Source: Mycobacterium sp. M26
GTDB lineage: Bacteria; Actinomycetota; Actinomycetes; Mycobacteriales; Mycobacteriaceae
Length of the DNA: 64,000 nucleotides
Assembly (NCBI RefSeq): GCF_001494595.1
Contig: NZ_LN929907.1
Span: 1,896,246 to 1,960,245, forward strand
Reading direction: 5' to 3'
Each line of letters begins with the position of its first letter. Within the stretch, counting starts at the first letter, position 1. Below the pieces are notes generated by a model. That model did no database searches. It was not told the origin of the DNA and worked only from the letters and a program-made list of their open reading frames with translations. Shown piece after piece: positions 19,152 to 22,698 of this stretch. The translations under genes and the position numbers were made by a program.

Positions 19152-20039
19152 GTGACCTCCGCCCGCTCCCTCACCGTCGTGACGGTGACGTACTCGCCGG
19201 GGTCACATCTGGACCGCTTCCTGTCGTCGCTGACCGTGGCCACCGACCGGCCGGTGACTGTGGTGCTGGCCGACAACGGGTCGGTGGACGGCACCCCCGA
19301 GGAAGCCGTCGAGCGGTATCCGGGGACCACGCTGCTGCGCACCGGCGGCAACCTGGGCTACGGCAGTGCGGTCAACCGGGCCGTCGCCACCGTGCCGGTC
19401 GACGACGAGTTCGTGATCGTCGCCAACCCCGACGTGGTGTGGGGACCGGGCAGTATCGACGCCCTGCTGGAGGCCGCGGAGCGCTGGCCGCGCGCCGGAA
19501 CGCTGGGCCCGCTGATCCGCGACCCGGACGGCTCGGTGTACCCGTCGGCGCGGCACCTGCCCAGCCTGATCCGTGGCGGCATGCACGCGGTGGTCGGGTT
19601 CGCCTGGAAGAACAACCCGTGGACCAAGGCCTACCGCCAGGAGCATCTGGAGCCCAGTGAGCGGCCGGTGGGCTGGCTGTCGGGGTCCTGCCTGCTGATC
19701 CGCCGGGCGGCATTCGAGCAGGTCGGCGGCTTCGACGAGCGTTACTTCATGTACATGGAGGACGTCGACCTCGGTGACCGGATCGGCCGGGCCGGCTGGC
19801 TCAACGTCTACGTCCCCACCGCGGAGATCCTGCACGACAAGGGCCACTCCACCGGGCGTGATCCGGCCCGCAACCTGCGGGCCCACCACGACAGCACCTA
19901 CATTTATCTCTCCGACCGCCATTTCGGATGGTGGCGGGCACCGCTGCGGTGGACGATGAAGGGCGCGCTGAAGGTGCGCTCCCGGGCGGCGGTACGCAAG
20001 TCGAAACGGGAACGGGGGAGAGGGGTGAACACTCGATGA
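19152..20039 (+). CDS. wbbL: Rhamnosyltransferase (linker unit of arabinogalactan)
   Basis: This 295-residue GT2 enzyme has VVTVTYSPG at the start, LADNGSVDGTPEEA, NLGYGSAVNRA, the acidic NPDVVW metal motif, WLSGSCLLIRRAAFEQVGGFDERYFMY (in parts) and MEDVDLGDRIGRAGW, the classical layout of rhamnosyltransferases. It adds rhamnose to decaprenyl-PP-GlcNAc. The GTG start at 19152 is exactly 6 nt after TAACCT (19140-19145) without a ribosome binding site, as in leaderless genes. Its stop overlaps the next gene (ATGA). Confidence 0.95.
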   Translation: MTSARSLTVVTVTYSPGSHLDRFLSSLTVATDRPVTVVLADNGSVDGTPEEAVERYPGTTLLRTGGNLGYGSAVNRAVATVPVDDEFVIVANPDVVWGPGSIDALLEAAERWPRAGTLGPLIRDPDGSVYPSARHLPSLIRGGMHAVVGFAWKNNPWTKAYRQEHLEPSERPVGWLSGSCLLIRRAAFEQVGGFDERYFMYMEDVDLGDRIGRAGWLNVYVPTAEILHDKGHSTGRDPARNLRAHHDSTYIYLSDRHFGWWRAPLRWTMKGALKVRSRAAVRKSKRERGRGVNTR

Positions 20040-21121
20040 GTGATGTGAACCCGGGCGCGGTAGACGCGGTCGTCCTCGTCGGCGGCAAGGGCACCCGGCT
20101 TCGGCCGCTGACCCTGTCGGCCGCCAAGCCGATGCTGCCCACCGCCGGGCTGCCGTTCCTGACCCATCTGCTGTCGCGGATCGCCGAGGCCGGGATCGAA
20201 CACGTCATCCTCGGTACCTCGTACAAGGCGGCGACCTTCGAGAACGAGTTCGGCGACGGCTCCAAGCTGGGCCTGCAGATCGAATACGTCACCGAGGAAC
20301 ACCCGCTGGGTACCGGCGGCGGCATCGCCAACGTGGTGCCCAAGCTGCGCAACGAGACGGTGATGGTGTTCAACGGCGACGTGCTCTCCGGTATGGACCT
20401 GCGCGACATGCTGACCGCACACCACTCGCGGGAAGCCGATCTCACCCTGCACCTGGTCCGGGTCAGCGACCCGCGGGCGTTCGGCTGTGTGCCCACCGAT
20501 TCCGAGGGCCGGGTGCTGGCGTTCCTGGAGAAGACCGAGGATCCGCCGACCGACCAGATCAATGCCGGTACCTACATCTTCAAACGCGAGATCATCGACC
20601 GCATCCCGCGCGGACGCGAAGTGTCGGTGGAGCGCGAGGTGTTCCCGGCGCTGCTGACCGACGGTGTGAAGGTGTGCGGGTACGTCGACTCCAGCTACTG
20701 GCGCGATATGGGTACGCCGGAGGATTTCGTGCGCGGCTCGGCGGACCTGGTTCGCGGGTTGGCGCCGTCGCCTGCTTTGGGCGGGCGGCGCGGTGAGAGC
20801 CTGGTGCACGACGGCGCCTCCGTGGCGCCCGGCGCGGTGCTGGTCGGCGGCACGGTAGTGGGCCGCGGCGCGGAGATCGGGCCGGGCGCACGACTGGACG
20901 GCGCGGTGATCTTCGACGGCGCCAAGATCGAGGCCGGGTCGGTGGTGGAACGCTCCATCATCGGGTTCGGTGCGCGGATCGGGCCGCGGGCGCTCGTGCG
21001 CGACGGCATCATCGGCGACGGCGCCGACATCGGAGCGCGCTGCGAACTGCTGCGCGGGGCGCGGGTGTGGCCCGGCGTGCTGATCCCGGACTGCGGCATC
21101 CGCTACTCATCGGACATCTAG
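20036..21121 (+). CDS. manC: Mannose-1-phosphate guanylyltransferase-like sugar nucleotidyltransferase
   Basis: This 361-residue protein (Rv3264c position, there called manB or manC) has the N-terminal nucleotidyltransferase domain with VLVGGKGTRLRPLT, KPMLPTAGLPFL, GTSYKA, FNGDVLSGMD and INAGTYIFKREI, and from about residue 250 a left-handed beta-helix built of hexapeptide repeats (GAVLVGGTVVGRGAEIG and similar). It makes GDP-mannose, the donor for phosphatidylinositol mannosides, lipomannan and protein mannosylation. ATG 20036 overlaps the wbbL stop. A 55-bp hairpin element begins 8 nt after the stop codon. Another nucleotide sugar as product cannot be excluded. Confidence 0.88.
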   Translation: MSDVNPGAVDAVVLVGGKGTRLRPLTLSAAKPMLPTAGLPFLTHLLSRIAEAGIEHVILGTSYKAATFENEFGDGSKLGLQIEYVTEEHPLGTGGGIANVVPKLRNETVMVFNGDVLSGMDLRDMLTAHHSREADLTLHLVRVSDPRAFGCVPTDSEGRVLAFLEKTEDPPTDQINAGTYIFKREIIDRIPRGREVSVEREVFPALLTDGVKVCGYVDSSYWRDMGTPEDFVRGSADLVRGLAPSPALGGRRGESLVHDGASVAPGAVLVGGTVVGRGAEIGPGARLDGAVIFDGAKIEAGSVVERSIIGFGARIGPRALVRDGIIGDGADIGARCELLRGARVWPGVLIPDCGIRYSSDI

Positions 21122-21128
21122 CTCGTTC

Positions 21129-21183
21129 GAGCGGCCACTTACGTCACGCTTTCTGGCCGATTCCGTGGCATAAGTGGCCACTC
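21129..21183. repeat. 55-bp hairpin element, left copy
   Basis: The arms are GAGCGGCCACTTACGTCACG (21129-21148) and its near complement (21164-21183), separated by a 15-nt loop. Each arm end contains the self-palindromic AGTGGCCACT (left arm with one change). A second copy with the same arm and loop sizes lies at 22105-22159. This copy stands directly after the manC stop and could also act as a terminator. Confidence 0.85.
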
Positions 21184-21240
21184 GTGGCGGGCTGTGGATG
21201 GTGGACACGTCATCGGGCACTCACGTGACAGGGTGCCGTC

Positions 21241-22149
21241 GTGGCAGAACTCGACGGCCCGTTTCGGGGATCGGCGGCGCTGGCTGCCGGGCTGCTCAAC
21301 CGACGCTCGCTGGCTCGTGACTACCGGGCGATCCATCGCGATGTGTACCTACCCCGCGACTGCGTGGTGACACCTGCGGTCAAGGCGCGGGCCGCGTTCA
21401 TGTGGTCGGGAGGTACAGCGACGGTGGCCGGGCTCTCGGCGGCTGCGTTGCTCGGAAGTCGCTGGATCGACGATCACCACCCAGCCGAGCTCATTCGCCG
21501 CAACGGCAAGCCGGTGGCAGGCATCGTCATCCATCGTGACGAGCTTCGGGGCGATGAGGTTCTGCGCGTGGGGGACGTCGCGGTGACCACGCCCGCGCGC
21601 ACAGCGTTCGACCTTGGTCGTCGGCGGGGCATCGACACCGCGGTGTTCCGCCTCGATGCGTTGTGCAACGCCACCGGTCTGCGGCGGGCAGCCATCGACG
21701 AGGTCGTTGCCTGTCATCCTGGTGCTCGGGGCCTCACCCAGCTTCGGCAAGTTCTCGGTCTGGTGGACGGCGGAGCGGAGTCACCACAAGAGACCCGGAC
21801 CAGGCTGCTGCTGATTCGTTCCGGGCTGCCGGAACCGACGACGCAGATCAAAATCTTTGACGAGTGCGGTCACTTCATCGCGCGGGTCGATATGGGCTGG
21901 GAACAGTGGAAGGTTGCGGTGGAGTTCGACGGCGCCCAGCACTGGACCGACCCGGCGCAGCGGGCGCGCGACATCAATCGCCTGGCTGAGTTGGAGTCGT
22001 GTGGGTGGCGCGTCATCCGGGTGAGCAACGACCTCTTGCGCAACGCCCCCGGAGTGATCGTCGACCGCGTCGTGGCTGCGCTGATCGCGGCGGGCTGCCC
22101 GATCGAGTGGCCACTTACGCCACGGTTTTCGCGCAAACTCGTGTCATAA
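21241..22149 (+). CDS. DUF559 / AbiEi-like protein with C-terminal PD-(D/E)XK nuclease fold
   Basis: This 302-residue protein has an N-terminal region like AbiEi-type antitoxins (YRAIHRDVYLP, GGTATVAGLSAAALLG, VGDVAVTTPARTAFDLGRR) and a C-terminal DUF559/Vsr-like domain from about residue 180. The latter shows S-P-Q-E-T-R, then RVDMGW, VAVEFDGAQHW, RDINRLAELESCGWRVIRVS: the acidic D and E-x-D residues expected of a PD-(D/E)XK nuclease. Such genes are numerous in mycobacteria and their role is unknown; defence or toxin control is inferred from the family names only. It replaces the DNA methylase gene (Rv3263) found here in M. tuberculosis. The start is GTG 21241. Its last 15 codons and stop lie inside the right hairpin element. 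Confidence 0.8.
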   Translation: MAELDGPFRGSAALAAGLLNRRSLARDYRAIHRDVYLPRDCVVTPAVKARAAFMWSGGTATVAGLSAAALLGSRWIDDHHPAELIRRNGKPVAGIVIHRDELRGDEVLRVGDVAVTTPARTAFDLGRRRGIDTAVFRLDALCNATGLRRAAIDEVVACHPGARGLTQLRQVLGLVDGGAESPQETRTRLLLIRSGLPEPTTQIKIFDECGHFIARVDMGWEQWKVAVEFDGAQHWTDPAQRARDINRLAELESCGWRVIRVSNDLLRNAPGVIVDRVVAALIAAGCPIEWPLTPRFSRKLVS

Positions 22150-22159
22150 GTGGCCACTC
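22105..22159. repeat. 55-bp hairpin element, right copy, shared by two convergent genes
   Basis: The arms GAGTGGCCACTTACGCCACG (22105-22124) and 22140-22159 surround a 15-nt loop; the left copy at 21129-21183 has the same dimensions. The stop codons of the DUF559 gene (TAA, 22147-22149) and of the convergent Nudix gene (TGA, complement of 22144-22146) both fall in the right arm, so the element supplies the end of both genes and could terminate transcription from both sides. Confidence 0.85.
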
Positions 22160-22698
22160 GGCGGAGAAGTCAGGGCCGCGCTCACCAGGTGCGCCAGTGC
22201 GCTGTCGGTGCCGGGCGGCAGTTCGGTGGCCGGCCACCACCGCAGATCCAACGATTCGTCGCTGATCGCGATCTCGGCGTCCTTAGGCGCGCGGGCGATG
22301 AACTGCAGATCGAGATGACGGGTCGGCACGCCCAGTGAGCAGGTCAACGCATGCACGTGGATGCGCCCGAGATGAGCGTCGATGGTCAGCCCGTCGATCC
22401 CGGACTCTTCGGTGGCTTCCCGGAAGGCGGCCGCCATGATGTCGGAATCCTCATCCTCGCAATGCCCGCCGAGTTGCACCCATCGCCCCAGCCGCGGATG
22501 CAGGGTCAGCAGAACCTGATCCCCGGAATCGGCGACCACCAATGCCGAGGCGGTGATATGCCCGGGCACGCAACTGCGTTGGCAGGCATCAGGCCGGGCG
22601 AGCACGAAGGCCAGCACGGCCTGCCGCAGCGCGTCCTGCTCATCGCTGGGGGCCTGCCAGTCGGTCAACAGCTCGATCGTGGAGTCCCGGACGCTCAT
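22144..22698 (-). CDS. Nudix hydrolase
   Basis: This 184-residue protein contains the Nudix box in [15 protein letters not shown] followed by [10 protein letters not shown], with the R-E-x-x-E-E metal-binding core (about residues 77-99). Nudix enzymes cleave nucleoside diphosphate derivatives; the substrate is unknown. Its ATG overlaps the fbiB stop by 4 nt (ATGA), so it is the third gene of the fbiA-fbiB operon, and it might act on F420 precursors or guanine nucleotides, but that is only context. The last four codons (G-H-L and stop region) are encoded by the right hairpin element. Confidence 0.88.

Follow-up and report, generated by a model that had tools for sequence, protein, structure and literature searches.

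A putative selfish mobile element of mycobacteria formed by a DUF559 nuclease gene and its flanking palindromes

A DUF559 gene between two matching palindromes

The 64,000-nucleotide stretch of Mycobacterium sp. M26 analysed here (contig NZ_LN929907.1, positions 1,896,246 to 1,960,245 of the forward strand; hereafter the window) contains a cassette made of a single DUF559 gene enclosed by two matching palindromes. The best reading of this cassette is a selfish element of the kind formed by repetitive extragenic palindromic (REP) sequences and REP-associated tyrosine transposases (RAYTs), driven by an unrelated enzyme. We propose that it is a minimal selfish mobile element, in which a predicted nuclease gene lies between two palindromes of ~57 bp predicted to be bound by the protein's own AbiEi-like domain, and that the single palindromes scattered elsewhere are likely its non-autonomous derivatives; the probability of this reading is estimated at roughly two in three. 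In mycobacteria and related bacteria, the enzyme probably makes up a mobile element together with its palindrome.

The upstream palindrome, of the TGGCCA type, lies at 21129-21183 (21128-21184 in its extended form of 57 bp) and the downstream palindrome at 22105-22159 (extended, 22104-22160), neither having a strand. Each spans 55 bp with arms of 20 nt and a loop of 15 nt, their starts are 976 bp apart, and the folding of each, on either strand, beats 200 of 200 shuffles (z -5.1 to -8.9). The single open reading frame (ORF) between them is the DUF559 gene (21241-22149, plus strand, GTG start, 302 aa), whose protein matches PF04480. The first-pass annotation had described this arrangement of two hairpins with equal arms and loops bracketing one DUF559/AbiEi-like gene, and the coordinates, the folding against shuffles and the PF04480 match bear it out. 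Its further statement that the arms end in the same self-palindrome holds for three of the four arm ends (AGTGGCCACT) but not for the first, which is AGCGGCCACT. It was right that the downstream hairpin supplies the last codons and the stop of the gene (TAA at 22147-22149) as well as the stop of a convergent Nudix ORF (22144-22698, minus strand), the 3' end of which lies inside the palindrome. Within the window, matches to the hairpin type occur at these two places only, and Rfam gave no match at gathering score. The reading of the hairpins as T-tract terminators was dropped, a consensus scan of 20900-22500 having found no intrinsic terminator with a T tract after the stem.

Hairpin pairs 938, 957 and 1007 bp apart, each enclosing one homologous DUF559 gene, were found at two different sites in three other genomes, and since such close pairs recur, DUF559 loci were collected. 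Of the 198 genomes of the genus, 196 have homologues, as do 100 of the 150 sampled from the order Mycobacteriales. The resulting 157 loci are a non-random sample, consisting of the best homologue matches from the genus and order searches together with others chosen for good assembly or taken from the window genome (G000) and from G004, G011 and G065; L074 and L075 were added from the genus-wide hairpin search, and L076 was excluded because it is the same place as L098. A further 37 DUF559 loci, 24 of which score at least 14, overlap this set and were left out of it.

A palindrome scan blind to sequence found many homologues with one palindrome upstream and one at the gene end. When strong hairpins (at least 15 of 18 pairs) were counted in 50-bp bins along the 157 loci, 70 fell in the last bin before the aligned gene end and 69 between 50 and 200 bp ahead of the start, in three bins; the remaining bins held between 0 and 9 (9 just past the gene end, elsewhere at most 4), with only 2 inside genes. 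The two palindromes are often alike within a locus and unlike between subfamilies, which comprise a TGGCCA type, a CGAACGTCGACTTGTTG type, a GAATGTGGACTT type and others. This was quantified by the best local alignment between the 200 bp upstream and the 200 bp downstream, with a cut-off of 16: the cut-off is reached at 98 of the 153 loci with enough flank, against 1, 0 and 0 of 153 in three controls in which one or both stretches were shifted by several hundred bp (maxima 17.5, 13.5 and 15). A second run with slightly different limits, for which 154 of the 157 loci had enough flank, gave a pair match at 100 of 154 loci against 0 of 153 shifted controls. Hairpins of at least 14 of 16 pairs were found upstream in 63 loci (2 in the control) and downstream in 74 (4 in the control), and a weaker joint criterion retained 114 loci against 6. 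The upstream-downstream match is kept by 26 of the 44 loci whose protein is less than 43% identical to that of the window. In the window genome, 7 of the 10 DUF559 genes fetched have a matching pair by score, and in an eighth (L244) both palindromes are of one type by another comparison. To the question, raised by the first-pass annotation, of whether other DUF559 genes share these flanks, the answer is thus divided: many are flanked by palindromes, but often by palindromes of their own sequence.

The similarity of the two palindromes was also compared with that between related elements. Between elements whose proteins are 60-65% identical, an upstream-downstream score of at least 16 is reached in 14% of 250 sampled comparisons, and below 55% identity in 0-3%; within loci the proportion is 65%, a level equalled between loci only at 70-80% protein identity. 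A locus's own two palindromes therefore resemble each other far more than they do those of related elements, so that with divergence of the enzyme both palindromes change together. A mycobacterial genome has several genes of the DUF559/AbiEi-like kind, G187 reaching up to 15 matches, with different palindrome types at different genes in the genomes inspected. At one locus (L274), a run of G and N stands within the downstream palindrome, perhaps a failure of sequencing or assembly there.

Predicted fold and palindrome recognition

The profile matches of the window protein are to DUF559/MTES_1575 only, and its N-terminal half matches AbiEi models. Fold prediction gave an AbiEi antitoxin fold for residues 1-176 (21241-21768, plus strand) and a Vsr/EDxHD nuclease fold for residues 179-286 (21775-22098, plus strand), a comparison in which the failure of other folds to match carries no weight. 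The prediction is thus of one protein combining a DNA-binding part of AbiEi fold with a nuclease of Vsr/EDxHD fold. Among 68 sequences, E184, D217 and D244 are invariant, and E228, D230 and H234 are conserved in at least 90%; we take these six to be residues of the EDxHD catalytic type, the activity being predicted only.

The residues that may recognise the palindrome were sought by covariation in the 114 loci with a pair (3324 element pairs). Element pairs 50-80% identical were used and overall identity was regressed out, kinship being handled by this regression only, without a tree. The columns that best predict a common palindrome are 99, 89, 88, 90, 101 and 22, then 295, 91, 288 and 301; columns 288, 295 and 301 act as a positive control, because they belong to, or border on, the residues that the downstream palindrome encodes. 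With the upstream non-coding palindrome alone and only pairs from different sites (2109 pairs, 114 loci), the top six of 270 columns are 89, 90, 88, 101, 99 and 91, followed by 22, and all seven lie within the AbiEi-like part. Across this stretch, enzymes of the TGGCCA type, such as L094, read RRNGKP...GIVIHRDEL and those of the CGAACGTCGAC type, such as L112, read RRSRDK...GIILHSDTL. Residues 86-101 (21496-21543, plus strand) are thus predicted to help read the palindrome, and this covariation makes them the likely specificity determinant.

The geometry of the palindromes is consistent with such recognition. Their median span is 58.5 bp upstream (110 loci) and 61 bp downstream (109 loci), with an arm of 22 and a gap of 14-15. 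According to the available portion of one study, the AbiEi-family antitoxin Rv2827c recognises in its own promoter 23-bp inverted repeats that come in pairs with 13 bp between them; the two 23-bp repeats bound by AbiEi are separated by 3 bp, and each protein failed to bind the other's sites (PMC7319586). This likeness suggests that each "hairpin" may be a double-stranded paired site and not an RNA hairpin. From fold, geometry and covariation, the palindromes are predicted to be the binding sites of the protein's AbiEi-like domain. The earlier view of the gene as mere cargo is not upheld, since fold and residue covariation make it more likely an enzyme that recognises the palindromes.

Dispersed copies and states of the insertion sites

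Genome-wide dispersal was measured for the TGGCCA type only, with a covariance model built from 12 copies of the window genome. Counting the two of the window, that genome (5.7 Mb) has at least 17 full copies and, besides, one partial copy, a lower bound given that 150 of 3275 first-look candidates were scored. Matches to the model occur in at least 82 of the 198 genomes of the genus; the counts are again lower bounds (at most 27 candidates scored per genome), with both strands of one place counting twice. Outside the window, this genome has 15 full copies, of which 14 were examined; at every one of these solo loci a likely ORF has its 3' end inside the repeat or within 25 nt of it, the ORFs having been picked heuristically by length and third-position GC; at one of these places (L020) an additional ORF of equal quality spans the repeat. 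A hairpin of the window's type stands beside only 1 of the 7 PF04480 genes of the window genome, and on the scatter and this ratio alone the repeat would be ordinary. The first-pass annotation had reasoned that scatter after unrelated genes, with no link to DUF559 genes, would speak for an ordinary dispersed repeat: the scatter at the ends of unrelated genes is indeed found, but the link is not missing, as the pairs match at DUF559 loci. Of the 34 genomes in which the model matches 10 times or more, 22 have a same-type cassette (G094 weakly); in two of these 22, G049 and G187, the homology is to part of the gene only. At one solo locus (L006 1520-1660; G000:C9:2463569), the right half of the palindrome and the adjoining sequence form a tandem duplicate. 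Stem-loop families of M. tuberculosis, including Myt-1 and Myt-8, are listed in the consulted part of PMC2267715.

The left neighbour of the cassette in the window is a mannose-1-P guanylyltransferase-like ORF (19928-21121, plus strand; NTP_transferase and hexapeptide), presumably manB, which ends 8 nt before the upstream palindrome. The junction between this gene and the Nudix gene was compared in 30 loci. Five hold cassettes of the window's kind, its own included (L144, L145, L146, L155, L158), and two hold other DUF559 relatives (L164 at 44%; L161, partial, at 31%). A lone TGGCCA palindrome is found in L151 and L169, and short other palindromes, mostly paired, in six loci (L162, L163, L165, L166, L167, L172); 13 loci have 6-44 bp without a recognised palindrome, and two (L171, L173) are unclassified. 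Three of the short palindromes were compared with cassettes: those of L163 and L167 match cassette L240 (66%, E 8e-4; 75%), and that of L165 matches none. The suggestion that strains lacking the gene be searched for an empty site with one hairpin is answered at this junction by relatives with one palindrome and relatives with none. The idea of an exchangeable cassette is corroborated, relatives holding the cassette, one palindrome or nothing here, and cassettes in opposite orientations elsewhere.

A comparable diversity was found at the site of solo palindrome L016, where 25 loci were inspected and 14 could be classified, the other 11 having a missing or poorly aligned flank. Five of the 14 are empty, with a gap of 4-31 bp (L318, L322, L324, L326, L327); L309 and L310 have the TGGCCA type, and five loci have other palindromes (L311, L312; L314, L320; and two in L316), so that at least four palindrome types are spread over 7 of the 14. 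Among the palindromes of this junction, five of eight match a cassette palindrome of the set and three match none; a matching cassette exists in the same genome for those of G000 and G009 and for the second one of G004. Where its relatives hold a full palindrome, L313 (G020) has the remnant CGAGTGGCCACTCG, the product expected of recombination between two TGGCCA cores. L315 (G003) has a 1464-bp insertion of another kind between the flanking genes.

The 157 loci group into 48 site clusters, the largest of 26 and 20 loci, and cassettes of the TGGCCA type occur in at least three of them. Sixteen locus pairs, from four sites, have their cassettes in opposite orientations; 10 of these pairs, at three sites, match in both flanks and the other 6 in one. 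In L260 and L274, the flanks are 92-93% identical and the cassettes, which are inverted and have different palindromes, only 70%, a difference that looks like the replacement of one cassette by another; L261 resembles this case (flanks 94% and 88%). The pair L245 and L253 is an inversion in which the cassette is still 81% identical.

Alternative explanations, related systems and taxonomic reach

We hypothesise that two copies of the protein would sit on one palindrome in the manner of AbiEi-type antitoxins on paired inverted repeats, that the nuclease would cut or nick at the palindrome, and that repair would then place a copy of the cassette, or of a palindrome alone, at gene 3' ends where insertion is tolerated. 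As an operator, the upstream palindrome would additionally allow autoregulation. Cutting, and copying or transposition, by the DUF559 enzyme are inferred steps of this model.

Several results weigh against the proposed element. No convincing pair was seen at 40 of the 154 loci, and 4 of the 13 solo palindromes compared match no cassette of the set. Foldseek gave no match in the PDB at E of 0.001 or below, the best being 3r3p at 3.9e-3. Pairs from the same site, which are close relatives, give a weaker covariation picture, with other columns (229, 292 and 9) in the lead. RNA-level covariation in the 12 copies of the window genome was no better than in shuffles, and for this reason the palindrome is treated as a DNA site. 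Twelve of the 34 hairpin-rich genomes have no same-type cassette among the loci fetched, three of them (G071, G117, G137) having weak relatives. A phylum-level search with PF18741 yielded 30 loci, of which 19 were skipped for a long ORF or excessive proximity to a contig end and 11 were tested; the pair was found in L301, L304 and L306, that is, in two of three loci inside the genus, and outside Mycobacteriales in one of eight testable loci (two of the eight being short ORFs of 75 and 159 aa). With regard to movement itself, 293 locus pairs have cassettes at least 72% identical: 182 share both flanks, 101 share one, and in 10 neither flank seemed shared at first. Four of these ten were inspected: two share a flank, one is inverted in place, and the fourth belongs to one site cluster by transitivity. 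That most of these similar cassettes share sites indicates that movement to new sites is slow and inheritance mostly vertical. No fresh jump to a new site was caught among the loci compared, and neither a target-site duplication nor an exact junction was found in a species-level comparison in which the junctions are too diverged.

The main rival, which is real although we consider it unlikely, is an autoregulated nuclease with dispersed operators. The palindromes would then be AbiEi-type sites, the upstream one repressing the gene, the downstream one and the solos acting as roadblocks or terminators, and the protein would be a defence or regulatory nuclease instead of a mobility enzyme. It is favoured by the binding of AbiEi and Rv2827c to paired 23-bp inverted repeats upstream of their own genes, as given in the portion of PMC7319586 already cited, with a geometry like that of Rv2827c here, and by the position of the examined solos at ORF 3' ends. 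The matching second site at the 3' end of the gene is, however, foreign to the AbiE arrangement as that portion describes it (PMC7319586), no T-tract terminator was found in the 20900-22500 region, and junctions that are empty, solo or full in relatives, inverted cassettes elsewhere and several palindrome types at one junction fit insertion better than a conserved regulon. Autoregulation may nevertheless be partly true as well, because an upstream site of the AbiEi type is expected to regulate the gene.

A poorer candidate is concerted evolution without mobility, in which the two palindromes share an origin, homologous recombination keeps them alike and flips them, and the solos are scars of lost cassettes. 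The two flanks common to 182 of the 293 close pairs, the in-place inversion of L245 and L253 and the L313 remnant, which could stem from recombination between two arms, are in line with it; the covariation of residues and palindrome across different sites, the several palindrome types and empty junctions at one site, and the divergence of the L260 and L274 cassettes between flanks 92-93% identical are left unexplained, and we judge it improbable. The poorest is an ordinary dispersed REP or terminator repeat spread by another enzyme, such as a Y1 (RAYT/TnpA) transposase, with the DUF559 gene merely standing among its copies: it accounts for hairpins at the ends of unrelated genes in many genomes of the genus but is very improbable and already largely refuted, because the upstream-downstream match at DUF559 genes is lost once the compared stretches are shifted within the loci and differs from one enzyme subfamily to another, no Rfam match was found in the window, and the Y1 transposase domain (Y1_Tnp, PF01797) was not found in the window genome nor in 28 of the 34 hairpin-rich genomes (the window genome included), being found in 6. 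The ordinary repeat was rejected for the locus-internal palindrome match, and spread by RAYTs for the outcome of the Y1 search in these genomes. With a same-type cassette missing among the loci fetched in 12 of the 34 genomes and a Y1 domain found in only 6, solos may outlive, or lack, a detectable enzyme, and RAYTs do not explain them.

The selfish element proposed here is best compared with REP-RAYT systems, in which, in the part of PMC2817692 consulted, an enzyme gene is flanked by two related palindromes with many more copies outside genes, and trees of enzyme and REP are mentioned. An enzyme gene between two cognate palindromes is found here too (98 of 153 and 100 of 154 loci), as are, for the TGGCCA type, related palindromes dispersed outside genes. 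The DUF559 enzyme is, however, not a Y1/HUH tyrosine transposase (PF01797), and the palindromes (~57 bp, arms ~22) are longer than the 20-40 bp given for REPs in an excerpt of PMC3733652. The predicted fold of residues 1-176 and, ahead of the gene, inverted repeats paired in a comparable geometry recall AbiEi-type antitoxins (AbiE type IV toxin-antitoxin; Rv2827c), which differ from a protein with a nuclease domain joined on, a second site at the 3' end and dispersed solo sites. Unlike in AbiE toxin-antitoxin systems, there is no adjoining AbiEii nucleotidyltransferase toxin gene and no other gene between the palindromes, the neighbours being the guanylyltransferase-like and Nudix genes. In predicted fold and in conserved acidic and histidine residues, the stretch 179-286 resembles EDxHD/Vsr-fold endonucleases (I-Bth0305I, Vsr, DUF559 proteins), from which the cassette gene differs by its AbiEi-like domain; neither neighbour in the window is a methylase. 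In contrast to homing endonucleases, the window cassette and its same-site relatives lie between two genes and not in an intron, an intein or an interrupted gene. The Caulobacter DUF559 protein VsrA, likewise Vsr-like, is proposed to be a methylation-linked mismatch nuclease in the consulted portion of PMC12907096, whose main text makes no mention of palindromes.

The association of DUF559 genes with palindromes seems undescribed: no report tying such genes to flanking palindromes was found in the literature searched (titles and abstract openings, with few subscription journals covered). DUF559/AbiEi-like genes are common in the genus, the same literature assigns this kind no function, and the palindromes provide a predicted, testable substrate. 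If the element moves, the REP-RAYT lifestyle would have arisen independently around another nuclease, and one class of the palindromes scattered over mycobacterial gene ends would be accounted for. The short protein stretch that covaries with the palindrome offers a natural set of matched nuclease-site pairs. A wider proposition, for and against which we hold the balance to be even, is that of a new class of mobile element widespread in Mycobacteriales, whose AbiEi-EDxHD nuclease would read its own 57-bp palindrome through residues 86-101, cut, and seed itself and solos into gene 3' ends, enzyme and palindrome diversifying like lock and key and subfamilies displacing one another at the same sites.

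Beyond the genus, a search for relatives through the Nudix protein gave 28 loci, mainly of Nocardia and Actinoplanes, with three weak matches of Mycobacterium type (L069, L072, L073), and was not used. Phages gave 2 weak partial matches and plasmids 9 weak matches, with Tsukamurella loci among the records followed. In Tsukamurella tyrosinosolvens, a pair is present in 2 of 3 loci (scores 45.5 and 38, the third 14; controls 11, 17 and 13). The Tsukamurella "plasmids" NZ_LR134464.1 and NZ_LR134451.1 carry purB and gatA, and they may thus be chromosome pieces filed as plasmids. In another family of the phylum (L304, genome G411), a DUF559 gene has two tandem palindromes on each side, all of one type.
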